NCBI GenBank assembly: GCA_031257535.1
Contig: JAIROO010000106.1
Location: 1-34,358 of the forward strand
Direction: 5' to 3'
Length of the DNA stretch: 34,358 nucleotides
DNA from: Deltaproteobacteria bacterium
Lineage (GTDB): Bacteria > Desulfobacterota > Desulfarculia > Adiutricales > Adiutricaceae
Program-made: the position numbers and the translations under genes
Notes under the pieces: generated by a model
Told to the model about the DNA's origin: nothing
The model's input: only the letters and a program-made list of their open reading frames with translations
Databases searched by the model: none
Part shown: positions 8,851-26,472 of the stretch, one piece after another
How the letters are laid out: the number at the start of each line of letters is the position of its first letter
Position numbering within the stretch: position 1 is the first letter of the stretch

Positions 8851-9067
8851 AAGGGTCTCTCCACGGCTAAAAGGGACGGTTTGGAGAAGACGGCGGGCGG
8901 CGGCCGACAATCTTAGGGCCGGGCCGCGTTTTTTTCTAAGACGAGCGACTACATAAGGCGACTATTGGACTTGACTAAAGAACGTTAGCTAGAGTTGTAT
9001 GGTACAAATTCCAAAGTTTTAGTAAATAAGTACTAAACACAGAGAAAAAACTTAAAAAACGAAAAAA

Positions 9068-9185
9068 GATGAAAGGCGTTAAAGGCAAAAAAACAAAAAA
9101 GAGACGAAAAAAGATGAAAGGCGTTAAAGGCAAAAAAAACAAAAAAAAGATGAAAGGCGTTAAAGGCAAAAAAACAAAAAAAAGA
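9068..9185. repeat. Tandem repeat, 3 copies, 36/45-bp spacing
   Basis: The core GATGAAAGGCGTTAAAGGC followed by an A-rich run starts at 9068, 9113 and 9149. The copies are almost identical in the core and differ mainly in the A-rich part. This points to recent slippage or duplication. Confidence 0.85.
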
Positions 9186-9239
9186 GATAAAAAAAAGATA
9201 AAAAAAAGTCGAAAAAAAATGAATAAAAAGATTAAATAG
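9069..9239 (+). CDS. Possible lysine-rich repeat peptide
   Basis: A 56-codon frame from ATG at 9069 to TAG at 9237-9239. It encodes three copies of MKGVKGKK(T/N)KK and a lysine-rich tail; 31 of 56 residues are Lys. The DNA copies start at 9068, 9113 and 9149, with spacings of 45 and 36, both multiples of three, so the frame survives the length change. The composition recalls the basic tails of histone H1-like DNA-binding proteins, but there is no hydrophobic core and no clear ribosome binding site. It could equally be an A-rich tandem repeat without coding role. Confidence 0.25.
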   Translation: MKGVKGKKTKKRRKKMKGVKGKKNKKKMKGVKGKKTKKRDKKKIKKSRKKMNKKIK

Positions 9240-9362
9240 CCCTCTAGCAAAACAAGTTTATTTAAAAATTAAATATAAAATAAATCAGACTTTTTAACTA
9301 AATAGTTATTATTTATTTCTGATTTTTAACATAAAAAAACAAAAAAATATGGTCAAAAATAC

Positions 9363-9550
9363 GCCAAAACCCTCTTTTTATTGACCAAAACCCTCTTTTT
9401 TTTTGACCAAAACCCTCTTTTTTTTGACCAAAACATTCATTTTATTGACCAAAACTATCTTTTTACCCTAAAACCTTTTTTAACCCAAAAAAACATTTTT
9501 TAACCCTAAAAACCTTTTTTAAGCTAAAAAACCTTTTTTAACCCTAAAAA
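9363..9550. repeat. Two adjacent series of about 21-24-bp T-rich repeats
   Basis: First series: TTGACCAAAACCCTCTTTTT in about five variants from 9363 to about 9470. Second series: TTAACCCTAAAAACCTTTTT in about five variants to 9550. The two units look related (TTxACC-AAAAC-CTTTTT), so one may derive from the other. They lie downstream of the 620-aa gene. Confidence 0.75.
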
Positions 9551-9744
9551 CAGTATTTTGGGAAAGAGCTTTTTTTGGGCCAACTATTGGGGCCAACCTC
9601 TATTTTTAGGGCCAACTTAAGGTCTGGCCCCCAAAAAATTCCCCTAAAACCTTGGTCAGCGCCAAAAGACTGAAAGGTCCAATCTACCCTAAAAAGCGCG
9701 ATTTTAATGACTAACTAGATCGAAAAAAAACGCGAACTAAGTTT

Positions 9745-11607
9745 TTAGCGCTTTTTAAGGACCTTTTTGATTTTTTTAGCGAGCTTCTTTTCGCGTTGCT
9801 TTTTTTCGTGCTGCGTTTGGAAGCTGTTTTTTAAATCTTCGTCGGGAAGAGACGCGAGGTCAATCCCTTGCTCGGCTAAAGAGTTCAAAAGACCAGCGTG
9901 TAAGTCCGCGAGTCCGTAAATTTTGTCCTTAAGGGCGCCCACCAGTTCGATCGAGTTAACGAACCACGGCGAAAACCGCGCTAACTCGTACTCCAGCTGG
10001 TTCTCAGAGCACTCCCGATCAAATAGGATTTGGTCTAAGAAGAGCTTGATCTTAGAGGCCATGATCCTCCAGCGACGTTTCTTAGTCTCTGGATCGTAAT
10101 CCTCTTCGGCGACCGTGAGATCGTCTTCAATTTTCCGAGTCAGCTTGAAAATATATTCCCGACTCATGTAGTCGGCAAAGTGTTCGGCGTGATCCCGTCC
10201 ATCGCGCAACTGGTCTAAAATCTCGACGATGTCGTCGACTTCATATTCATAATCTTCGGGGACACTGTCGAAGCTATCCTCGTCAAGGTCGCGCATTCGC
10301 TCCAGGGCAAAAGAGATGGTCTCGTAAAAAGCCCTAATTAGGCCAAATTCCACGAGCTTATCCCGCCAGTTGGAGCCATAAGAGGTGTCTAAGTAACCGC
10401 GGGCCGATTCGTGACGGGCGATGGCCTCTTTGGTCTCAGCCGCCAACAAACTTTCGCCTTTCTCAAAACACTGAGAAGCGAGTTCTCTTAAGGGACCTTG
10501 GATGGTTAAGCCCTTTAAAGCCGCGAGCGACTTGACCGCGTCGACGAGATCGAAATCCAAGTTCGCGTCGGGTCGCGAATCCAACTCTTCGCCAAAAAAA
10601 CGGTTTTCTAACTTGGCCAAGGCTAAAAAGGCCGAAAGATCAAAGGTAAAGCCATAAACGAGATCGGAAAACCTGGCGTTTATGTCTTCCAGAAACTCAG
10701 TCATGTTTTTTTCCAGCGTTTGGATGAAAGCGGCGAGCTTACCTTGATCTAAATCTATCTCTATCTTTAATAAATTTTTAATGTCATTTAAATAGTCCTC
10801 AAGCTGGACCTTTTTATCTACCAAAGCTTCGACAACATCAGAGATCATGAGGTCGTCAGGGCTCATGTAATATAATTCACGGTCTATCTGGGCCTTAGTT
10901 TTGACGATTTCCCGGTCTATTTTTTGGAGACTTTTATCGATCTCGCGTTCTAACTCAAATAAACGCTTAGGTTTGCCGGAAATATTTTCCAGGGAGTTTT
11001 TAGCGCCGCCCGAGAGGAAAGAATGAAACTTGCCCGATAAAGTGGCGGTCAGAACATTATAGGATTCAGATTCGCTTTGAAGATCTTGGATCTCTTGCTC
11101 TAGATCCCGGTTTTTGAGTTTTTTAAGTTGGGGGGGCGGTTGGTCGAATTTGGCCAGGGGAAATTGACCGGTGAGCTTTATAAATAATAGATGGAAAGAC
11201 TCGTAAAAAATCTTCTCGTCAATTACTTGCGGTAAAGTCGATCTTTCGTCTTGATCTAGGGTTAAAGCGGCCAAGCGGTCATACTTTTGTTGAATAGAGG
11301 CGATTTTTGCCTTTAACAAAGTCTCGGCCTTGGCTAAAAAGTCGCTGGCTACTTCGCCAACCTTTGTCCCCCGTTCCACCAATCGGCGCAAACAGCGCGT
11401 CGCCTTTAGAGCCTCCAGGCGGTCGTAGGGTCGGTGGTAATCGTGGATCCCCGGCAGGCTCTTTATTTCTCTGACGTGGGGAGCCAAGCCGCTACTTTGG
11501 GCCAGCTCCGGCAAAACCTTTAAGGCAGCCAAAATTAGCCCGTCAAAATCCAGCTGGTCGTCGGCGGAAAGCTGTTTTAGCGTGAGATCTATTGGTGGTG
11601 TATTCAT
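9745..11607 (-). CDS. Hypothetical protein, 620 aa, helical, acidic with basic C-terminal tail
   Basis: I do not recognise this protein. It has no signal peptide or membrane segment, so it is probably cytoplasmic. The sequence is rich in Leu, Glu, Asp and Lys with long predicted helical stretches, including coiled-coil-like parts around 170-320. An acidic patch occurs near 440-470 (DLDEDSFDSVPEDYEYEVDD), and the C-terminus is strongly basic (KKQREKKLAKKIKKVLKKR). The ATG at 11607 has no clear ribosome binding site. It follows the diguanylate cyclase gene on the same strand but 922 bases away across a hairpin, so membership of that cluster is uncertain. The length of the open frame and codon use like its neighbours argue that it is real. 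Confidence 0.75.
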   Translation of the reverse strand: MNTPPIDLTLKQLSADDQLDFDGLILAALKVLPELAQSSGLAPHVREIKSLPGIHDYHRPYDRLEALKATRCLRRLVERGTKVGEVASDFLAKAETLLKAKIASIQQKYDRLAALTLDQDERSTLPQVIDEKIFYESFHLLFIKLTGQFPLAKFDQPPPQLKKLKNRDLEQEIQDLQSESESYNVLTATLSGKFHSFLSGGAKNSLENISGKPKRLFELEREIDKSLQKIDREIVKTKAQIDRELYYMSPDDLMISDVVEALVDKKVQLEDYLNDIKNLLKIEIDLDQGKLAAFIQTLEKNMTEFLEDINARFSDLVYGFTFDLSAFLALAKLENRFFGEELDSRPDANLDFDLVDAVKSLAALKGLTIQGPLRELASQCFEKGESLLAAETKEAIARHESARGYLDTSYGSNWRDKLVEFGLIRAFYETISFALERMRDLDEDSFDSVPEDYEYEVDDIVEILDQLRDGRDHAEHFADYMSREYIFKLTRKIEDDLTVAEEDYDPETKKRRWRIMASKIKLFLDQILFDRECSENQLEYELARFSPWFVNSIELVGALKDKIYGLADLHAGLLNSLAEQGIDLASLPDEDLKNSFQTQHEKKQREKKLAKKIKKVLKKR

Positions 11608-12529: not shown

Positions 12530-13582
12530 TTACTGGTTCGACTCTAGGTCGTCCATCTCCGCGATCTCGTCGTCGTCGATGATCCAAGGATCTCGAAAGC
12601 AGACCACGTTCCGGCCCATGAGTTTGGCGTCGTATAAGGCTAGATCCGCCCGGCGAATAAAATTGGGAACCGTCTCCCCAGAGCGGTAGATGGTGTAGCC
12701 CACGCTAATGGTCACCGGAATGTTGCCGGTGTTAAACTTGTGGTTCTGGATGCGGTGCCTTAATTTTTCGGCCAGCTTATGGGACTGCTCGATATTGGTG
12801 TCTGGAGCCACCACCGTAAACTCGTCCCCGCCATACCGCGCTGGAAAGTCGTTCTTCCGTAAAGAAGTCCTAAGGATATCGGCCACTTGGACTAAGACCG
12901 AGTCGCCGACTAAGTGGCCTAAGGTGTCGTTCACGATCTTAAAGTTGTCCACGTCAATTATAAAAAGGGCCAAAGTCGGAGAGTAGGTCCGGAGCTTATC
13001 CATCTGCTCCTGGATTATCTCCATAAAGCTAGCCCGGTTGTACAGCTTGGTCATGCCGTCGTAGAGGGCCTGCTTTTTAAAATTATTGAGATCGTTGGAG
13101 ATCTTCCGACGCTCCACCAGCTCCATGCGGGCTTTCCGTAAGAGGTTAACTCGCTCGGCGTACTCCTCGTGAATAACCTGGATGCTCATGATCTGGATCT
13201 GCTTGTGGATCTGCCAAGCTTTGGCCACTAAAGGCAGCTCGACCCCGTTTTCCCCTTCGGGTTCCAGCCAGATGCCGGAATTGACCTTTTCGCCGACCCG
13301 GGGATTCTTTTCGAAAAAATCCTCGGCGTCCAAAAGAAAATACTCAAGCATGGAGGAGTATTTCCAGGGGACCGAACAAGGCCGACCGTCAGCGTCCAAA
13401 GGAAAAAGACGACCATAAAAATCCGGGACCTGACCGTAAAACTCGTAGACCATGGGCCGCATCCGTCTTAATACGGCGAACTCCATAACGCGGAGAAACT
13501 TTAAGCCCAGCTCGCCGCCCTGGCTTTTCAGCCGATCCCTTTCTAAGGTCTCTTCAGGGTTTTTGGACTTTTGAGCGCTCAT
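12530..13582 (-). CDS. Diguanylate cyclase (GGDEF) with N-terminal sensory-type domain
   Basis: Makes c-di-GMP from two GTP. The GGDEF domain spans about 170-330: metal-binding Asp210 in FIIDVDNFK, the catalytic GGDEF at 251-255 and an intact inhibitory I-site RKND at 242-245, five residues before GGDEF, so product feedback is expected. No EAL or HD-GYP domain is present. The N-terminal part (about 20-140) has the pattern MLEYFLLDAEDFF...SGIWLEP followed by a helix linking to the GGDEF domain. I recall a similar module in front of some histidine kinases, but cannot name the family. No membrane segment is visible, so it is cytoplasmic. AGGAAAG precedes the ATG. It follows the small GTPase gene by 176 bases on the same strand and may be the output of that cluster. 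Confidence 0.93.
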   Translation of the reverse strand: MSAQKSKNPEETLERDRLKSQGGELGLKFLRVMEFAVLRRMRPMVYEFYGQVPDFYGRLFPLDADGRPCSVPWKYSSMLEYFLLDAEDFFEKNPRVGEKVNSGIWLEPEGENGVELPLVAKAWQIHKQIQIMSIQVIHEEYAERVNLLRKARMELVERRKISNDLNNFKKQALYDGMTKLYNRASFMEIIQEQMDKLRTYSPTLALFIIDVDNFKIVNDTLGHLVGDSVLVQVADILRTSLRKNDFPARYGGDEFTVVAPDTNIEQSHKLAEKLRHRIQNHKFNTGNIPVTISVGYTIYRSGETVPNFIRRADLALYDAKLMGRNVVCFRDPWIIDDDEIAEMDDLESNQ

Positions 13583-13758
13583 ATTTTAGTCTTTCCTGAA
13601 AACTCCCCTCTTTTGGTGGGTTTGAAGGGGATAATAATTTCGCGATATTGAAAGGACTTTTAACGCGAATGGGGATCTTTTTTTGGCATTTTAATCGCCA
13701 ATTAAGGCGAACTCCCCTTTAATCCTGGCCGTCAGCCAAAAAAACGACAAAATAAGTC

Positions 13759-14277
13759 TTATTTGGCTGGCGTGGCGTTTTTTCCCATCATGGCCACGGC
13801 TAAGCGGGAAAAAGTCGACTCCACGTTCAAACCCGTCTTGGCGCTAGTCTTAATAGCCACCACCCCTTTGGATTCTAGGGAATTTAAGACTTTTTCCGAG
13901 ATTTCCCACTCCGACTCTAAGTCGGCTTTGTTGACGATGAAAAAGCTCGGAACTGAAGGACCCAAAATTTTTAAGGCCTCCATGCGCAGTTTTAAAGACA
14001 CCGAAAGAGTCTCGCCCCGGGTGCCGTCAACCACGAACAGAAGCCCATGCGCCCCTCTTAAATAGGACAGGTTGACCATACTGTAATTGTCCTGGCCTTC
14101 CATATCCCATAGCATGAGATTGATTTCCTCGCCTTCCACCTCAATAGTCTTCTTGGAGATCTTCACCCCAACCGTGGAGAGATAGTTATCCGAGAAAATT
14201 GAGTTGACGTAGTGGCGAACTAAGGCCGTCTTACCCACGCAAAAGGAGCCAAGCATGCATATTTTCTTGTTAATCAT
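13759..14277 (-). CDS. Ras-like small GTPase
   Basis: A compact 172-aa single-domain GTPase with every Ras-type motif: P-loop GSFCVGKT at 10-17, switch I Thr35 in STVGV, WDMEGQ at 57-62 with Asp58 and the catalytic Gln62 (Ras Gln61), NKAD at 116-119 and SAK at 145-147. This is the eukaryotic-looking small-GTPase group of prokaryotes (MglA and the Rup families), not a translation or FeoB-type GTPase. It lacks a lipid-anchor motif. Its start has only a weak ribosome binding site. It lies directly downstream of a membrane protein with a longin/roadblock-like domain, the kind of fold that binds such GTPases, which suggests the two interact. A perfect TATAAT at 14514-14519 (minus) may give it a promoter of its own. 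Confidence 0.92.
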   Translation of the reverse strand: MINKKICMLGSFCVGKTALVRHYVNSIFSDNYLSTVGVKISKKTIEVEGEEINLMLWDMEGQDNYSMVNLSYLRGAHGLLFVVDGTRGETLSVSLKLRMEALKILGPSVPSFFIVNKADLESEWEISEKVLNSLESKGVVAIKTSAKTGLNVESTFSRLAVAMMGKNATPAK

Positions 14278-14655
14278 AACTCGAATTCCAAAAGCAGTTT
14301 GTGGCTAACCCCGCTCTCCTTTTCCAAATCTTTTGGTAAAAACCCAAAAAAGGCCATAGCGATCTAAAAAAAAAAGGGGGAAAAAAATAGCCCCAAAAAA
14401 ATAAGCCGCTAGAGGCCGAAAACCAATTTGGCCTTAAAGACAATTTAAGAACGACGTTAAAATCTGGCCCTAATCATTATGGAGGAAGTCGTCAAAGGGC
14501 CTTTCAGCCAACCATTATATTTCATGGGCCAAAATAATGGAACTAAAAATTTTCTTTTTTTCTAAGGTTAAATCCGATAATTAGCTATACATGAGCTTAA
14601 TTATATTTTTATCGACTAAAAATCCTTAAGTATAAAAGCCAATATTCCCAGATAG
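14278..14655. other. Intergenic region upstream of GTPase gene
   Basis: A 378-base AT-rich gap inside the minus-strand cluster. It contains A runs at 14370-14400 and a TATAAT-type sequence (minus strand, 14519 to 14514). No coding frame is convincing. The gap suggests that the GTPase and cyclase may be transcribed separately from the OmpA-type gene. Confidence 0.5.
14514..14542 (-). promoter_or_regulatory. Possible promoter for GTPase gene
   Basis: Minus strand: a perfect TATAAT at 14519-14514. The hexamer 17 bases upstream (TTCCAT) is a poor match to TTGACA. It lies about 240 bases before the GTPase start. Position and the -10 match support it; the weak -35 and the AT-rich setting weaken it. 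Confidence 0.3.
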
Positions 14656-17310
14656 TTAAGGCTCGTTTAAGCTGATCCCGCCTTGGGCTAACCGCACCCT
14701 TAGCTCAATGCGGCGGCTTTCTGGATCGTCCTTGGGTCGATCGCCCTCCCCGCGAGCCGAGAACTCGGAGCCTAAACCATAATTAACGATGGGTAAGCTA
14801 GAGCCGCGGGCGTACAGTAAAGCGGCCACGGCTTTGGTGCGTTTTTCGCTCAACTCAAAGTTCCGCCGGTCTTGACCAGTGGAGTCGGCGTGGCCATAAA
14901 TGACCAAAGTCACGGACATCTGGGTCTCTTGGGCCAGATTTTCCAAGGCCACTAGATTGTCGACCGCTTCTATTAAAATAGGTCGATCCTCGGGCACGGG
15001 CTCGTCGCGGTCCGTGGGAAAATGGATCTTGACCCCATTAATGGCCGAGACCAGTCTTTCCATCTCATTGGAGCGGGGGTCGATTAAGCGGTCGGCGGTC
15101 ACCATAGTCACCCCGGGGATGGCTTTGGCTCTTTCCCGGGCCCCGATAATCCAGCCCATGGGAGCGGTCCCGCTCATGGTCAAAACGCCTTGGTCGGAGT
15201 CAAAGGCCAGTTCCACCGTGGGCAGAGGGTTAATGACCTCCCGGACCCGCCTTTGGACAATAGGCTCGTCTAAGGAAATAAAAGGCCTGACCATTAAAGA
15301 GACCCGCTCGGGCGACAGTTTTAACTGATCAAACAGAAGGTAAACTGGATCCACGGCTAAGCTGTCTTTGAGGCAGATCACATGCCAGCGGCCGTCCAGA
15401 CCCTCATCCGCTTGCGCGACGATCAGCCCAGGCTCGGCGTTTAAGCGAGCCATGGCCTCTTTAAATCTTTGTCGATCGAGCTTTTGGGATCTTTGGTGGC
15501 TAACCTCTCGCTCAATTTTTTGTTTTTCTAAAATAGCCACGCGCCTTTGGATATTTTTGGTCTGATAATGGCTAACAAAGCCAAAAACCAAGAAGAAAAA
15601 CAAGATGGCTAAGACGATTATCCAGAAAAACTTGGGAATCTTCCGGGGTTTATCCTGATACTTGGCCCGTAAAAAGTCCTGAAAATAGATCCGGCACTTC
15701 TTAAAGGCGGTCGCGTCGCCATTAAAAGCGTCTAACTCTTCGGCGCAGTCGACCACCATGAGCTCTAAGGCCTCTTGGAGATCCTTATTTAAAGACTCTG
15801 GAGGATTGCCGCGGACCACGCAGGCCAGATAAACCTGATTAGTCCGGCGTAAAAAGATGGTTCTATCCCCAAACCGCAGAGTGTCCAAACCCTCGTGCTG
15901 CTTGACGTTAAAGCTATCCCGCACAAAATCTTGGATAGCCGTAAACATGCCAGCCACCATGTCGGCGTCCCGACCGGACTCAGACTCCTCGGAGATCAAG
16001 TGGTCTAAAACCAGGCCGGTGGAGGCGTGGATAAGGTAAATCTCCTCCACGTGATACAAAAGGGTGTGGAGTAAAACGATCTCGCTAAAGGGCTTGTGGA
16101 CCCGTAAAGCCTCTAAACGCCATTTTAAGCCCCGTAAAGAGAAACTAGTCTCTAAGGTGCTATTTAAATCCTGAAGTTTGGAGACAAAAGTCTCGGAGAT
16201 GGACCGCCTAATAGCCGGACCAATGGCTGGGAAAATCTGGCTAGCCAAATTCTCAGGGTCCCGCCTAACCGAGGCCGTCACGATCTTCTCCACGGTCGGG
16301 GCCAAGACGGTGTTCAGTTTCTCGTCGCGGCGAGTCCTTAACAAAAGGGCCTCGGTAATGACGCCGCTTAAAAATTCGGCTCTTTGGGCCGGCCTAGTCA
16401 AGACTCGCGACAAATACGATAGCTGGGACAGCTCCCGGCTCATTAAAAGCTCGCGGACCTGACCCAACTCAGACTCGCTCTCCGGGGGTGGCGGCCACTG
16501 ACTGGGGTCGTCCTCGGCCGTCTCGTCCTCGAGTTTTTGGGAGTCAGAGGCGAACTCGTCGTCGCCCAAAGACGACCCAGTGGAGCCTCCGGCCTCGAGT
16601 TTGGGGTCGCCAAAGTCAAAAACCCCAGACGGCCCGGCGAAAAGCTCTTTTTCGGCCGCTTCCTCTTGAAAAAAACTGTCCAGATCGCCTAAAAGCTTGT
16701 CCTCCATTTCTTGGGAGTCCAAATCGATCTGGGTGGGCTCGTCTAAAAGCCCCTCGCTCTCAAGGATTAAACGCCTTTCTAAGTCCGCGTTCCCAACCTC
16801 AAGGGGTCGAACCGTCTCCGCCTCTTTGGACTCGGAGCCTAAGCCGGCCAAAGAAGCGTCGACCGCGATATCTGGCGCCAGAGGCTCTTTCGGGACAAAA
16901 GGTAAAGGGGTCGAGAGGGGGTCTAAAGCGGGATCTTGACCAAAGTCAAAAGCCGACTCATTAGGGTCGAGCGGCGAGTTTGGGTCAGGGATAGAGTCCA
17001 ACGCCGACAACAAGGTCGACTCGACGGACGCGGAATCTTTGGCCGCGTCTTCGCCTAAGGTTGGCGAGGGATCTTTAGCTAGAGCGATCGACGGATCTGG
17101 CGCCGGCTCTGACGGCGGATCTGACGACGGATCATGGCCCACGTCGATCGACGGGGCGATCGACGGATCTCGCGCTGAATCAAGCGCTAAATCGAGGGCC
17201 AGATCTGGCGACAGATCTTTTGACGGATCTGGGGCGGCGGATTCGGACTCAGCTAAGTCTTTCGGCCGCCAGCCCACGAATTTGGCCAAAAACCGCGAAA
17301 TTAACCCCAT
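14656..17310 (-). CDS. Transmembrane protein with longin/roadblock-like cytoplasmic domain and periplasmic OmpA domain
   Basis: 884 aa. Layout: a short amphipathic start (MGLISRFLAKFVGW); an acidic low-complexity region (about 20-280) full of Asp-Pro-Ser repeats; a helical domain (about 285-405) with PAIGPAIRRSISE; a longin/roadblock-like domain (about 408-525; IYLIHASTGLVLDHL, FTAIQDFVRDSF, TLRFGDRTIFLRR, YLACVVRG); one membrane helix at about 560-580, preceded by a basic stretch (KPRKIPK) that puts the N-terminal part in the cytoplasm; a BON-like segment (about 695-745); and a C-terminal OmpA peptidoglycan-binding domain (about 760-872; GHADSTGQDRRNFELSEKR). The cytoplasmic domain is the type used as a small-GTPase platform, and the GTPase gene follows. 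The domain call for the longin-like part rests on pattern recall and needs structure comparison. Confidence 0.82.
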   Translation of the reverse strand: MGLISRFLAKFVGWRPKDLAESESAAPDPSKDLSPDLALDLALDSARDPSIAPSIDVGHDPSSDPPSEPAPDPSIALAKDPSPTLGEDAAKDSASVESTLLSALDSIPDPNSPLDPNESAFDFGQDPALDPLSTPLPFVPKEPLAPDIAVDASLAGLGSESKEAETVRPLEVGNADLERRLILESEGLLDEPTQIDLDSQEMEDKLLGDLDSFFQEEAAEKELFAGPSGVFDFGDPKLEAGGSTGSSLGDDEFASDSQKLEDETAEDDPSQWPPPPESESELGQVRELLMSRELSQLSYLSRVLTRPAQRAEFLSGVITEALLLRTRRDEKLNTVLAPTVEKIVTASVRRDPENLASQIFPAIGPAIRRSISETFVSKLQDLNSTLETSFSLRGLKWRLEALRVHKPFSEIVLLHTLLYHVEEIYLIHASTGLVLDHLISEESESGRDADMVAGMFTAIQDFVRDSFNVKQHEGLDTLRFGDRTIFLRRTNQVYLACVVRGNPPESLNKDLQEALELMVVDCAEELDAFNGDATAFKKCRIYFQDFLRAKYQDKPRKIPKFFWIIVLAILFFFLVFGFVSHYQTKNIQRRVAILEKQKIEREVSHQRSQKLDRQRFKEAMARLNAEPGLIVAQADEGLDGRWHVICLKDSLAVDPVYLLFDQLKLSPERVSLMVRPFISLDEPIVQRRVREVINPLPTVELAFDSDQGVLTMSGTAPMGWIIGARERAKAIPGVTMVTADRLIDPRSNEMERLVSAINGVKIHFPTDRDEPVPEDRPILIEAVDNLVALENLAQETQMSVTLVIYGHADSTGQDRRNFELSEKRTKAVAALLYARGSSLPIVNYGLGSEFSARGEGDRPKDDPESRRIELRVRLAQGGISLNEP

Positions 17311-17427
17311 TTTCCTCTCTATGGGCGCTTTAGCCCTGCCAATGGTCAGCCGGTCGTCGCCCCAAGATTAAAGGGACCAAGTAAGCTAAAAGACCTAAAA
17401 ATCTCCCCTTTTTAAGGTCAAAGCTTT

Positions 17428-18237
17428 TTAGTATGGATTTTGATTAGCGTTGTCGTAACTCTCCTCGCCGCGATTGTCCTCGGACTCGCTCTCGGCCGCG
17501 CTTAGGTTTTGGTCGTCAACCATGACTAGGCTCTGGCTGTCTTCCCCGGCCGGCGGAACCTCAATGTTCCAAGGCTTGGTCAGGCTGCCCACGATCTCCG
17601 TAAACATGGTCGACAAGGCGGTCCGGTAGACCATATCGGAGCGAATTTGAGCGGCCGTTTTCTCAATGACCGAGATAGCCTCGTTGTACTTCTCGTCGAT
17701 CTTGTCGTTAAGGCTGGAGCTCTCGGACATCAGAAGCTCTCTTAAGGTCCTTTCGGTCAGATCCAAAGAGTTAGCCAGTTTAGCGAACCTACGGTCGGCG
17801 TTTTCTTGAGCCTGGGCTAAATCGGCGGTCAGTTTGTTTAAGGCCTCGGTCCTTTCCCGTTTCTCTTGGGCCAAGGCTTCGTTAAACTCCCGCTGCCTTT
17901 GAGCCAAAAGGTCGTTCCGCTCCCGAACCGCCGCGGCCAACTCTTCCTGGCGCTGGCTGGCCTCGTTCTTAATAGCCGACTCTCGATCCTCGCGTTCTTC
18001 CCGCGCCCGATTTAAAAGAGCGGAAACTTCGCTTTTCATGAAATTTTCGAGGGAGTCAAGCCGACCACGGAGAGATTCCTTAACCTCGGAAATCTCCCTT
18101 AGTAACTTTTCTTCCTGACGCCGAAAGCGGGTCTCCATGTCCTTCAGTTGGGCCCCAAATAGGATCTCCCGAACCTGGGCGATGGGAGCCTCGGACTGGG
18201 ACGCGTCGTATTGCCCACGAGGCAGATTTTTGCTCAT
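17428..18237 (-). CDS. Coiled-coil protein, first gene of the GTPase cluster
   Basis: 269 aa, cytoplasmic (no signal or membrane helix). An N-terminal motif, VREILFGAQLKDMETRFRR, leads into a long coiled coil (about 35-215) rich in Glu, Arg and Lys heptads, then an acidic, Asn/Ser/Glu-rich tail ending NANQNPY. AGGAGGT 5 bases before the ATG is the strongest ribosome binding site of the cluster. It lies 117 bases before the OmpA-type gene on the same strand behind a good sigma70-type promoter, so it should start the operon. A likely role is scaffold or filament partner of the membrane protein; that is inference from position and coiled-coil content only. Confidence 0.8.
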   Translation of the reverse strand: MSKNLPRGQYDASQSEAPIAQVREILFGAQLKDMETRFRRQEEKLLREISEVKESLRGRLDSLENFMKSEVSALLNRAREEREDRESAIKNEASQRQEELAAAVRERNDLLAQRQREFNEALAQEKRERTEALNKLTADLAQAQENADRRFAKLANSLDLTERTLRELLMSESSSLNDKIDEKYNEAISVIEKTAAQIRSDMVYRTALSTMFTEIVGSLTKPWNIEVPPAGEDSQSLVMVDDQNLSAAESESEDNRGEESYDNANQNPY

Positions 18238-22212: not shown

Positions 22213-25200
22213 ATGCCCGTTCCCGATAGTCCAGACCGACGGTTTTATCTCGGCCTGGACGCTGGTTCCATCAGCCTTAAGGCGGTCTTATTGGACGCCC
22301 AAGGGACCTTGGTATTCCAGGAATACGTCCGCCACCAGGGGCGACCATTTATCGCGGCCGTAGACGTCTTAGAAAAACTCGCCCAAAAATTCCCCTTAGA
22401 ATTAGTGGCCCCCCCCAAGGCGACGGGACTTTCGGCCACCCAACTCGCCACGCTCTTAGGCGGGGGACCTTTAGGGGAGGTCTTAGCTTTAACTTTAGGG
22501 GCAAAAAAACTCTACCCTAAAGCCCAGAGCTTAATCGACATTGGCGGCGAGGACACCAAGCTTTTATGGCTTAAACCCGACGGGGACGACCTCATCTTAG
22601 CCGACTTCGCCATGAATACCTTGTGCGCGGCCGGCACTGGCTCCTTTTTAGACCAACAAGCTCACCGTTTAGGTTACTCCATCGCCGAGTTTGGGGCTTT
22701 GGCTTTAAAGTCTAAAGTTCCGCCCAGGGTCGCGGGTCGCTGCAGCGTTTTCGCTAAAAGCGACATGATCCACCTCCAGCAGTCGGCGACTCCAGACTAC
22801 GAGATTATCTACGGCTTGTGCTTGGCCATGGCTAGAAGCCTAAAAAGTGGTTTAGCTAAAGGCCGGAATCTGCCCGCGCCCGTCCTTTTCGTGGGCGGAG
22901 TGGCCGCCAATCCTGGTCTCGCCCAAGCTTTTTTGGAAGTCTTAAACTTAAAACCCCAAGAACTCGTCATTCCGCCCACCCATTTTGTGTTCGCGGCCGT
23001 GGGGGCGGCTGTCGCGGCTTATAACGAAGGTCAAAACGCCCCTTTAGGCCTAAGTTTAAAAGTTTTAAAAGATTTCACGAAGAGTTCTCGCCCTAGTCCC
23101 GACCGCCTCCCGCCCCTCGTTCGGCCCTTAAAAACTCCCAAAACTAGCTCCTTTGACTGGTCGACCGTGGACCCGGCTAAACCTTTAGAAGTTTATATTG
23201 GGGTCGACGTGGGTTCGGTCTCCACCAACGTGGTCTTAGTTACGCCAGAAGGTCAGTTAGTGGCCAGGCAGTACCTCCCCACCGCCGGTCGACCTTTAGA
23301 AGCCATCTCCTTAGCCATGGCCAACCTTCTCCCGGACGTCGCCGGTAAAACCTTAGTCTTAGGGGTCTGCTCCACGGGCTCAGGGCGCTATCTGTCGGCC
23401 GACTACTTAGGGGCCGATCTAACCGTCAACGAGATTACGGCCCAAGCCACGGCCGCGGTGAGCTTAGATCCAGACGTGGACACCATCTTTGAGATCGGCG
23501 GCCAAGACTCAAAGTACGTCGCCTTAAACCAAGGAGTCATCGTCGACTTCATGATGAACAAAGCCTGCGCCGCGGGCACGGGCTCTTTCTTAGAGGAAGA
23601 GGCCGATAAGCTAGGCTTAAACATCAAAGAGGAGTTTAGCGATCTGGCTTTTTCTAGTCCGGGGCCTGTCGCCTTAGGCGAGCGCTGCACGGTCTTTATG
23701 GAGTCGGATCTGGTGCGTCACCAAAGAAACGGGGTGGCTCTGCCCGATCTGACGGCCGGGCTCTGTCACGGGGTGGTGGCCAACTACTTGGGCCGGGTCG
23801 TGGAGACCAGACCCATTGGCCAAAGGATCTTTTTTCAAGGCGGGACGAGCTTTAACCAAGGCGTGGCCGCGGCCTTCGCTTATCGGTTAGGGCGCGAGGT
23901 CATCGTGCCGGACAACGCCGACGTCACCGGAGCGGTGGGCGCGGCCTTAATCGCCCGCGACCGCCGCTCCTGGGCCAAGTCGACGTTTGTGGGCTTTGAC
24001 TTAAGCCAAAGGTCTTACGAAGTTAAAAGCTTTGAGTGCCGCAACTGCCCCAACCGCTGCGAGATCCGCGAGGTCATCGTCTTAGGCGGCCAGCCTTTCT
24101 TTTACGGGTCCCGCTGCGACCGCTACGAGGAAGCCGGTCGCAAAAAAGCCACGCCCAAGTGGCCAGATCTCTTTCAGTTTAGAGCGGAGGCGGCCTTTAA
24201 CTGTCCTGAGCTTAGGGCTTTAACCGCTGAATTAGAGTCTGGCCAGAAACCGTCTCGCGGCCAGATCGGCTTAATCAGGACCATGGTCTTCGCTGAGCTG
24301 GGTCCCTTCTGGTCGGTCTTCTGGGCGGCTTTAGGGTTTCAACCAGTGTGGTCGCGGCCCACCAACAAGACGGCCATCCACCGCGGCTGCGAGCGGACCG
24401 AGGGGGAGTTCTGCTTTCCGATTAAAGCCGCCCATGGCCACCTTTTAGACCTTATTGAAACCGGGGTGGAGCGGATTTTTCTGCCCTCGGTCGTCAATCT
24501 ACCGCCCGACCTCAAAGGAGCCAAAGACAACGCCGCTTGCCCTTACGCCCAATCCCTGCCTTTTACGGCCGCGGCGGCTTTGGATTTAGAAGAACCCCGC
24601 TTACTGACTGGACCCATCTTTTTTGGCGAAGGACCCAAAACTTTGTTGGACAGTTTAGTGGGCTTAACCGCGCCCTTAGGTCTTGACAAAAAAGAGGTGA
24701 GCGAGGCTATCGCTTTGGGCTGGGCGGCCCAGAAAAACTTTTCCCAGCGTTTAAAAGCCAAAGGCCAAGAGGTCCTAAGCCAGTTAACCCCCTTGGAGAC
24801 GGCCATGGTGGTGGTCGCGCGGCCCTATAATGGCTTTGACCCCGGCATGAATCTTAGCTTAAGCCGTAAACTGAGCGACTTAGGGGTCTTGGGCGTGCCT
24901 TTGGATTTTTTGCCCTTAGAGGATTACGCCTGTAATTATGAGGCCCAGAGCCACTACTGGCGCTATGGCCAAAAAATTACGGCCGCCGCCGCCGCCATCT
25001 CGGCCGACCCCCGCTTAGAGGCCCTCTACATCTCCAACTTTGGTTGTGGGCCAGACTCCTTTATTCTGCACTTTTTTAAGCATTTAATGGGGCCCAAACC
25101 CTTTTTAGAGATCGAGATCGACGAGCACTCCTCCGACGTGGGGGCGGTCACCAGGTTAGAGGCCTTTTTAGACTCCTTAGCCGCCCGAAAAGCCAGAAGT

Positions 25201-26472
25201 CAAAAGCCCCCCGTGGCCCCACCGGTTAAACCCTTAGCCACCCGGCCGCAACCCAGAAAAGGCCAAACTATTTACATCCCTCCCATGTGCGACCACGCCC
25301 TGGTCTTGGCCGCGGTTTTACGGGGGGCCGGACTTTTAGCCGAAGTACTGCCCGAGTCCGACCAAGAGACGGTGGCTTTAGGTCGCTCCCAGACCTCGGG
25401 GAAAGAGTGTTATCCCCTTATTTTAACGGTTGGCGACTTTATTAAAGTCACCCAAAGAAAAGACTTTGACCCTGACCGAGCGGCCTTTTTTATGCCGTCT
25501 TCCAATGGTCCTTGCCGTTTTGGCCAGTACAGTCGCTACCTCTCTTTAGTGGCCACTCGTCTCGGCTTAGGGGCGGTTGAGGTCGTGGCCTTAGACCAGA
25601 CCGGCGGCATGTACGCGGCCTTAAACAAAGCTGGCCGCGGCGGTCAGAGTCTGTCGCGCGGAGTCTGGCAAGCTTTAGCCGGGACCGACCTTTTACAAAA
25701 AGCCCTTTATTACGTCCGCCCCCGGGAAAAAACCCAAGGTCTCGCCGACGCGGCCTACGCCGAGTCCTTAGCCGACTTAGGGACGGCCATTACCGAAGGG
25801 CGGCCCGCGGTCAAAAAGGCCATGGCGAGGGCCCGAGAGAGGTTTCAAAGCTCTTTGGCGAAAACCAACGGAGCCGCCCCCAAACCTAAAGTGGGCATAG
25901 TCGGCGAGATTTACGTGCGCTCCAACCGCTTCGCCAACGACAACGTGGTTAAGCGCTTAGAGGCCTTAGGGGCTGAGGTCTTGGCCCCGCCCTTTACCGA
26001 ATGGGTTTTTTACACGGGGTTCGTCAACTCCATGCGCGCCGCTCGCCAAGGCTTGTGGAAAAAACGCTTTCAAGCGGCTTTAACGATTTTAGTTCAAGAC
26101 TTTGACCAAGGCTCCTTAGCCAAACCCTGGTCCGGTTTTTTTCCCACCGGGGCCAAAGACCCTTCCATCCGAGAGATCGTGGGCTTAGGCGAGAATTTTC
26201 TGCCCCGGGCTTTTCAGGGGGAGGCCATTTTATCTTTAGGCAAGGGTTTAGAGTTTTACCACCAAGGAGCCAGCGGTTTAGTTAACATTATGCCTTTTAC
26301 CTGTATGCCCGGCATGATCGTCGGCGGCTTGACCAGTCGCTTAAGGGCTAAGGCTGGGGGACTGCCTGTCCTAAGCCTCGCCTACGACGGCCAAAGCCAA
26401 GCCAACGCCCACGAGGCTCGCTTAGAGGCTTTTATGCTCCAGGCTAAAAACTTTCATAACCCGGGCGAGTAA
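22213..26472 (+). CDS. Giant 2-hydroxyacyl-CoA dehydratase activase-type protein with two ATPase domains
   Basis: 1419 aa. Two BadF/BcrA/HgdC-type ASKHA ATPase domains in tandem. Domain 1 (about 11-275): GLDAGSISLK, DIGGEDTK at 109-116, Cys138 in CAAGTGSFLDQQA and Cys177 in GRCSVF. Domain 2 (about 327-585): GVDVGSVSTN, EIGGQDSK at 427-434, Cys452 in CAAGTGSFLEEEA and Cys492 in ERCTVF. In HgdC these cysteine pairs hold the bridging 4Fe-4S cluster of the dimer; here one chain may form an intramolecular pair. Then come a Cys cluster C609-C612-C616-C635, a DUF2229-type segment (about 690-905; Cys726, Cys734) and a C-terminal part resembling the dehydratase subunit fold. Known relatives are widespread in anaerobes; function mostly unassigned. 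No HgdA/B-type genes are nearby. AAAGGA precedes the ATG. Confidence 0.88.
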   Translation: MPVPDSPDRRFYLGLDAGSISLKAVLLDAQGTLVFQEYVRHQGRPFIAAVDVLEKLAQKFPLELVAPPKATGLSATQLATLLGGGPLGEVLALTLGAKKLYPKAQSLIDIGGEDTKLLWLKPDGDDLILADFAMNTLCAAGTGSFLDQQAHRLGYSIAEFGALALKSKVPPRVAGRCSVFAKSDMIHLQQSATPDYEIIYGLCLAMARSLKSGLAKGRNLPAPVLFVGGVAANPGLAQAFLEVLNLKPQELVIPPTHFVFAAVGAAVAAYNEGQNAPLGLSLKVLKDFTKSSRPSPDRLPPLVRPLKTPKTSSFDWSTVDPAKPLEVYIGVDVGSVSTNVVLVTPEGQLVARQYLPTAGRPLEAISLAMANLLPDVAGKTLVLGVCSTGSGRYLSADYLGADLTVNEITAQATAAVSLDPDVDTIFEIGGQDSKYVALNQGVIVDFMMNKACAAGTGSFLEEEADKLGLNIKEEFSDLAFSSPGPVALGERCTVFMESDLVRHQRNGVALPDLTAGLCHGVVANYLGRVVETRPIGQRIFFQGGTSFNQGVAAAFAYRLGREVIVPDNADVTGAVGAALIARDRRSWAKSTFVGFDLSQRSYEVKSFECRNCPNRCEIREVIVLGGQPFFYGSRCDRYEEAGRKKATPKWPDLFQFRAEAAFNCPELRALTAELESGQKPSRGQIGLIRTMVFAELGPFWSVFWAALGFQPVWSRPTNKTAIHRGCERTEGEFCFPIKAAHGHLLDLIETGVERIFLPSVVNLPPDLKGAKDNAACPYAQSLPFTAAAALDLEEPRLLTGPIFFGEGPKTLLDSLVGLTAPLGLDKKEVSEAIALGWAAQKNFSQRLKAKGQEVLSQLTPLETAMVVVARPYNGFDPGMNLSLSRKLSDLGVLGVPLDFLPLEDYACNYEAQSHYWRYGQKITAAAAAISADPRLEALYISNFGCGPDSFILHFFKHLMGPKPFLEIEIDEHSSDVGAVTRLEAFLDSLAARKARSQKPPVAPPVKPLATRPQPRKGQTIYIPPMCDHALVLAAVLRGAGLLAEVLPESDQETVALGRSQTSGKECYPLILTVGDFIKVTQRKDFDPDRAAFFMPSSNGPCRFGQYSRYLSLVATRLGLGAVEVVALDQTGGMYAALNKAGRGGQSLSRGVWQALAGTDLLQKALYYVRPREKTQGLADAAYAESLADLGTAITEGRPAVKKAMARARERFQSSLAKTNGAAPKPKVGIVGEIYVRSNRFANDNVVKRLEALGAEVLAPPFTEWVFYTGFVNSMRAARQGLWKKRFQAALTILVQDFDQGSLAKPWSGFFPTGAKDPSIREIVGLGENFLPRAFQGEAILSLGKGLEFYHQGASGLVNIMPFTCMPGMIVGGLTSRLRAKAGGLPVLSLAYDGQSQANAHEARLEAFMLQAKNFHNPGE

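Follow-up and report, generated by a model that had tools for sequence, protein, structure and literature searches.

A variant Group 1 Rup-type GTPase operon with a predicted longin/roadblock-like scaffold protein in a deltaproteobacterial genome

The four genes at positions 12530-18237 of the window (the whole 34,358-nucleotide stretch analysed here, contig JAIROO010000106.1 of a deltaproteobacterial assembly) almost certainly form a Rup-type system, in which a Ras-like small GTPase is encoded together with a coiled-coil protein, a membrane protein with an OmpA-type domain and a signal-output protein. What is new in our analysis is that structure prediction places a conserved domain of the membrane protein, left unassigned when this gene set was described in 2014, in the longin/roadblock fold. 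Also new are a predicted PAS-like domain at the front of the output protein and a pattern of paired residues in GTPase and output that the window's family reverses, the latter without statistical significance. The reading that we prefer, with moderate confidence, is a diverged Group 1 Rup-type envelope signalling system, which would combine a longin platform with control of the GTPase from the side of a PAS-like domain.

Gene set and published relatives

The open reading frame (ORF) listing contains all four ORFs on the minus strand, at coordinates given beforehand, and their products are those that an earlier, sequence-only reading had described for four same-strand genes: a coiled coil, a protein with an acidic head, a longin-like domain, a transmembrane (TM) helix and an OmpA domain, a Ras-like GTPase and a GGDEF protein. 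These ORFs are not chance features, because same-order orthologues of all four are found in most relatives of the window's family. A scan of the minus strand found no terminator-like sites between the four genes; a single promoter-like match (10/12) lies ahead of the first, in a scan where promoter-like sites were not above those of shuffled sequence.

17428..18237, minus strand: coiled-coil protein, 269 aa, first gene (ORF; its orthologue precedes the longin/OmpA gene in almost every locus)
14656..17310, minus strand: longin-like/TM/OmpA scaffold protein, 884 aa (ORF, Pfam OmpA)
16474..17310, minus strand: acidic, Pro/Ser-rich variable head of the scaffold, residues 1-279 (composition; poorly conserved, length varies)
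16090..16473, minus strand: conserved helical region, residues 280-407 (AlphaFold2 model of lower confidence, alignment)
15730..16089, minus strand: predicted longin/roadblock-like domain, residues about 408-527, a-bb-a-bbb-a (AlphaFold2, Foldseek)
15562..15630, minus strand: single TM helix, residues about 561-583 (hydropathy)
14797..14934, minus strand: core of the OmpA-type peptidoglycan-binding domain, residues 793-838 (Pfam OmpA, E 7e-8)
13759..14277, minus strand: Ras/Rab-like small GTPase, Rup type, 172 aa (Pfam Ras, E 8e-30)
14092..14094, minus strand: GTPase Gln62, aligned with Ras Gln61; most relatives have Glu here (alignment)
12530..13582, minus strand: PAS-like/GGDEF protein, predicted diguanylate cyclase, 350 aa (ORF, Pfam GGDEF)
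13088..13486, minus strand: predicted PAS-like input domain and exit helix, residues about 33-165 (AlphaFold2 pLDDT 89; Foldseek PAS/LOV)
13136..13138, minus strand: Arg149 (LLRKAR), where most relatives have a conserved Gln (alignment)
12608..13069, minus strand: GGDEF domain with GGDEF and RxxD motifs, residues 172-325 (Pfam, E 2e-42)

This combination of genes has been described before, in a purely in silico study of the Rup GTPases (Wuichet and Sogaard-Andersen 2014, PMC4316618); among prokaryotic GTPases, these are described as the nearest to eukaryotic Rab, Ras, Rho and Ran (PMC4915359, PMC4316618). According to the 2014 paper, the Group 1 Rup neighbourhood holds the GTPase, a coiled-coil protein, a conserved domain without assignment, often with a TM helix and OmpA after it, and a signal-output protein whose N-terminal region bears an invariant Gln; the GTPases of this group are said to be without the G3 Gln, and the partner was suggested as its source (PMC4316618). 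The same paper gives Rup proteins as experimentally uncharacterised as of 2014 (PMC4316618), and our literature search, which covered mostly papers available without subscription, found no later functional study of Rup systems. A wholly new system is thus ruled out by the 2014 description. The sequence-only reading was right that the four-gene set is real but did not recognise it as the published Group 1 Rup set. Because the window's GTPase has Gln62 and Group 1 is said to lack the G3 Gln, we file the operon as a variant, rather than a standard member, of Group 1.

The GTPase itself is complete and Ras-like, as had been read from the sequence, with all nucleotide-binding motifs intact (G1 GSFCVGKT, G3 WDMEGQ, G4 NKAD, G5 SAK). 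Its closest solved structure in a profile search of the PDB is Rab23 (E 1e-29), and its G3 follows the Ras/Rup-like form WDxxG, the MglA-type TVPGQ or GTPGQ not being present. At the head of the operon, the coiled-coil protein carries a conserved N-terminal motif, VREILFGAQ. A related motif, [VL]R-x-[IL]L-x-[GS], starts the conserved parts of both the coiled-coil and the scaffold proteins, and was rejected as a link between them (hhalign probability 12%, not significant).

Several features of the surrounding sequence may be recorded here. Just downstream of the operon, 9745-11607 on the minus strand encodes a 620-aa protein with no Pfam family above the cut-off, no homologue of which adjoins the operon in 17 relatives examined. 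Between this gene and a PTS-type gene block (read by eye), 9045-9551 is a stretch of tandem repeats rich in A/T, whose periods range from 11 to 81 bp, and on the plus strand 22213-26472 encodes a 1419-aa protein that, by eye only, resembles a fused 2-hydroxyacyl-CoA dehydratase activase and dehydratase.

Predicted domains of the scaffold and output proteins

The scaffold protein begins with a strongly acidic head (65 Asp+Glu against 17 Lys+Arg in residues 1-280) and carries near its end an OmpA domain in which the motif residues GHAD and LSEKR are found and the Asp and Arg positions typical of peptidoglycan-binding OmpA domains are kept. Between residues 280 and 600, Pfam detected no domain above the cut-off. 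An AlphaFold2 model of this region, built with 56 homologues, reached a mean pLDDT of 78 and a pTM of 0.49 and consists of helices followed by an a-bb-a-bbb-a arrangement at about 408-527. When the longin-region model was compared with the PDB by Foldseek, the 49 matches at E<=1e-3 were of longin/roadblock type, including AP sigma and mu subunits, zeta-COP, Mon1-Ccz1, TRAPP, Fuzzy-Inturned, Ragulator, an Asgard roadblock protein, dynein-associated light chains and MglB (1j3w, 3t1r). Many of these are parts of GTPase regulators; a few are large complexes, in which we take the matched chain to be the one with the longin/roadblock fold.

With the sequence profile of the longin region alone, a PDB search returned neither longin nor roadblock chains, and among the 56 homologues Pfam gave weak matches to Fuz_longin_1 in three (best E 0.006) and to Intu_longin_1 in two (best E 0.035). 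The roadblock family Robl_LC7 is absent among the Pfam matches listed for these homologues, and the likeness to roadblock proteins is one of predicted fold only. Taken together, we consider it highly probable, on the strength of the models, that residues about 408-527 adopt a longin/roadblock fold, as the sequence-only reading had proposed.

For the output protein, a GGDEF cyclase had been predicted. The GGDEF domain stands, together with its RxxD I-site motif (LRKNDFPARYGGDEF), and the protein is accordingly a predicted diguanylate cyclase; overlooked was its PAS-like front, an input domain common to many outputs. AlphaFold2 gave the first 166 residues a PAS topology (pLDDT 89) and Foldseek matches in the PDB were mostly PAS and LOV domains, the best at E 2e-3 and none below 1e-3; from these models the N-terminus is very probably a PAS-like domain. 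In relatives, the same type of domain stands in front of HD-GYP domains, histidine kinases, sigma-54 activators and GGDEF-EAL proteins. In many gammaproteobacteria a PAS-like domain of a second type precedes what reads, by eye, as a class III cyclase, and in some Gemmatimonadota the output is a PP2C protein without a PAS-like domain. Because hhalign found no significant link between the profile of the first PAS type and one output of the second type, the equivalence of the two types is one of position and motif only. The predicted c-di-GMP output is the choice of the window's lineage only, other lineages using kinases, HD-GYP, sigma-54 activators, cyclases or PP2C.

Distribution, gene order and residue pattern

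The GTPase is present in 32 of the 37 genomes of the window's family and in 1/26 elsewhere in its class. Matches at E<=1e-30 number 15/395 in the window's phylum, 20/148 in that of a Nitrospira genome, 14/200 in that of a Gemmatimonadetes genome, 11/246 in that of a Planctomycetota genome and 46/398 in that of a gammaproteobacterium; outside the five phyla sampled here, the Rup family is also reported from Cyanobacteria, Chloroflexi and Bacteroidetes (PMC4316618). Of the distinct GTPase loci, 73 have 3 kb or more of upstream sequence; the longin/OmpA gene lies upstream on the same strand in 62 of these and the coiled-coil gene in 61. Gene order is conserved in the majority of loci over five phyla, and GTPase and OmpA-type genes are widely found together, in agreement with the pairing suggested earlier. 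GTPase and output genes frequently overlap or abut, and the window and relatives with the same neighbourhood group in one GTPase tree. In some loci of the family (L035, 9672-12488; L138; L139; L036, 10220-12205), 2-3 kb separate the scaffold and GTPase genes, and the gap in L036 holds a second gene similar to the periplasmic part of the scaffold. One further locus, L241 (G1327:C377), has a tandem pair of Rup GTPase genes behind a single scaffold gene.

Among relatives that carry a name, the closest are Deltaproteobacteria and Candidatus Adiutrix metagenome-assembled genomes (MAGs), Adiutrix being a termite-gut lineage. Within the Adiutrix genus, the scaffold gene is on a different contig from the GTPase/cyclase pair in two genomes (G018 and G034), and in G033 a cyclase-type gene is on a different contig from the remaining three. 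G031 is without scaffold and GTPase and retains only, on its contig C88 at 1073-1294 (L275), an apparent pseudogene remnant of a PAS output with two stops. G035 has a PAS-type output only, and in one Desulfovibrio MAG just the coiled-coil gene and the scaffold gene are present, GTPase and output being absent. Where the operon broke up its pieces were mostly kept, though the genomes with missing parts are draft assemblies and the absences are provisional.

The window's family reverses, at the level of aligned residues, the usual pattern of the relatives (GTPase Glu, output Gln), its GTPase having Gln and its output Arg. Over 132 aligned rows (the window counted twice), GTPase position 62 is Glu in 80, Gln in 33, Arg in 9 and another residue in 10, and all 33 rows with Gln belong to the window's family. 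In most lineages the exit helix of the output carries Q-x-A-[RNY], where the window has RKAR; the conserved Gln of the relatives is likely the invariant Gln described in PMC4316618. Among distinct pairs of the first PAS type, 37 of the 38 with a GTPase Glu have an output Gln, and 29 of the 30 with a GTPase Gln have an output Arg. The full tally (GTPase/output) is Glu/Gln 37, Gln/Arg 29, Thr/Gln 2, Lys/Gln 2 and Arg/Gly 2, with single cases of Asp/Gln, Glu/Thr, Gln/Ser and Arg/Arg. Beside PP2C outputs, which have no such residue, the GTPase has Arg (5) or Lys (1), and some Gemmatimonadota keep the GTPase Glu without a recognisable adjoining PAS output. Gammaproteobacterial outputs of the second PAS type show Glu/Gln; the set used for the tree test contains three such rows assigned by eye, one of them Glu/Glu.

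On a GTPase tree built with position 62 masked, the rows whose outputs are without the Gln fall into the larger clade of the window and the PP2C clade of Gemmatimonadota, apart from two that stand singly. A first coding of the tree test (Glu versus not Glu) gave no signal. A test of phylogenetically independent pairs yielded 1-2 informative pairs, which agreed in direction where informative, and cannot reach significance; because only about two informative events occur on the tree, the association is not significant. We treat the Gln/Arg swap, as seen in the alignments, as a lead for experiment and not as demonstrated coevolution.

Proposed mechanism, alternatives and known systems

In the preferred Group 1 Rup-type model, the OmpA domain would tie the scaffold to peptidoglycan, while the cytoplasmic longin/roadblock-like domain would serve as a membrane-fixed platform at which the GTPase binds and exchanges or hydrolyses nucleotide, the coiled-coil protein helping assembly of the complex. 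The loaded GTPase would then act on the PAS-like domain and switch the catalytic half of the output, here the diguanylate cyclase, and the contact on the PAS side may help to end the signal by supporting GTP hydrolysis. In the RasGAP/Ras pair, the catalytic arrangement is a cis-Gln in Ras and a trans-Arg from RasGAP; in the window's family, hydrolysis could likewise be aided by an output Arg acting together with the Gln of the GTPase itself, and in most lineages by the output Gln. The gene set, its order, its co-inheritance and the intact motifs are in hand, as are the folds by prediction. From these we infer the binding partners, the direction of the signal, the GEF and GAP roles and the envelope cue. 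Docking of the GTPase on the longin-like domain is somewhat favoured, and the PAS-like domain is to a similar degree the probable target of the GTPase; that envelope state is the signal falls a little short of an even chance, and a catalytic role for the output Gln/Arg is rather doubtful. The sequence-only interpretation as a whole is thus partly supported: of the two outcomes that it had named as refuting, an unrelated fold of the 408-525 region and a failure of GTPase and OmpA-type genes to co-occur in other genomes, neither arose, and its docking, envelope control and c-di-GMP output in vivo are still proposals.

The way in which the operon comes apart bears on an improbable alternative, in which the GTPase works with the output only and the coiled-coil/longin/OmpA pair forms an envelope structure of its own, placed in the operon by chance. 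G018 and G034 split the two halves as units, the Desulfovibrio MAG retains one half without the other, and GTPase and output genes often overlap or abut; yet the halves stand together in 62/73 sampled GTPase loci across phyla and are mostly kept or lost jointly in the Adiutrix genus, and the longin fold is typical of GTPase partners. The residue pattern is pertinent to the fairly unlikely reading that the longin-like domain is a GAP or a passive anchor, the PAS-like domain a pure effector and the output Gln/Arg non-catalytic. MglA has a roadblock-fold GAP, MglB, whose structures were also matched by the longin-region model; the Gln/Arg position lies on the helix leaving the PAS-like domain and could equally well have a structural function there, and the Glu/Gln and Gln/Arg pattern may be a single historical accident. 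Set against this, the Gln is conserved in outputs of different kinds, and its absence is accompanied in two separate clades by Gln or Arg/Lys at GTPase position 62.

A GTPase with a roadblock-like partner and a signalling output also follows an MglA-like logic, and c-di-GMP enzymes, which are among the outputs, often control motility. A polarity or surface-motility module like MglA/MglB, in which OmpA would only position the complex and envelope state would not be sensed, is nevertheless distinctly improbable: no pilus or gliding genes were recognised beside the operon, and the G3 motif is WDxxG against TVPGQ/GTPGQ in MglA. Returning to the envelope signalling model, its most far-reaching form, which we regard as speculative and unlikely to hold in full, is that Group 1 Rup is a wall-anchored bacterial Rab-longin module, in which the longin domain loads the GTPase, interchangeable PAS-fronted outputs act as effector and GAP, and the place of the catalytic Gln has shifted between the GTPase and its partner in the course of evolution, the window's family arriving independently at the cis-Gln/trans-Arg solution of Ras and RasGAP. 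If a wall-anchored longin protein is indeed the partner in Rup operons, the Rab-longin pairing would exist in bacteria with interchangeable outputs, which would bear on the origin of GTPase-regulator pairs. Through the Gln/Arg swap, the 2014 proposal that the partner protein contributes the catalytic residue can be tested directly.

Among known systems, the closest is Group 1 Rup itself, with which the operon shares a single-domain Ras-like GTPase below 240 aa (here 172 aa, with motifs G1-G5), adjacent genes for a coiled-coil protein and for a conserved domain with TM helix and OmpA, and an adjacent signal-output gene (a c-di-GMP enzyme or histidine kinase; here GGDEF) with a special N-terminal region. 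It differs in that the window's family has the G3 Gln in the GTPase and an output Arg where most relatives have Gln. With MglA/MglB it shares a small GTPase and a partner of roadblock fold, here a predicted one matching MglB 1j3w and 3t1r; however, G3 is WDMEGQ rather than TVPGQ/GTPGQ, and the window's partner is fused to a TM helix and OmpA, with no Pfam roadblock family among the matches listed. Actinobacterial conservons (CvnA-D) likewise join a signal protein, a roadblock protein and a small GTPase in one operon, whereas the window's operon has neither an MglB-type roadblock gene nor the conservon kinase and its GTPase is of Rup/Ras type. A longin-fold partner (here predicted) of a Rab-like GTPase is common to Mon1-Ccz1/Ypt7, Fuzzy-Inturned/Rab23 and TRAPP/Ypt1; the likeness to Fuzzy-Inturned/Rab23 extends to the weak Fuz_longin_1 and Intu_longin_1 matches in a few homologues and to Rab23 as the closest solved GTPase. 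In contrast to these Rab exchange factors, of which the tri-longin ones have three longin domains, the window's scaffold is bacterial, anchored in membrane and wall, and has one predicted longin-like domain per chain.
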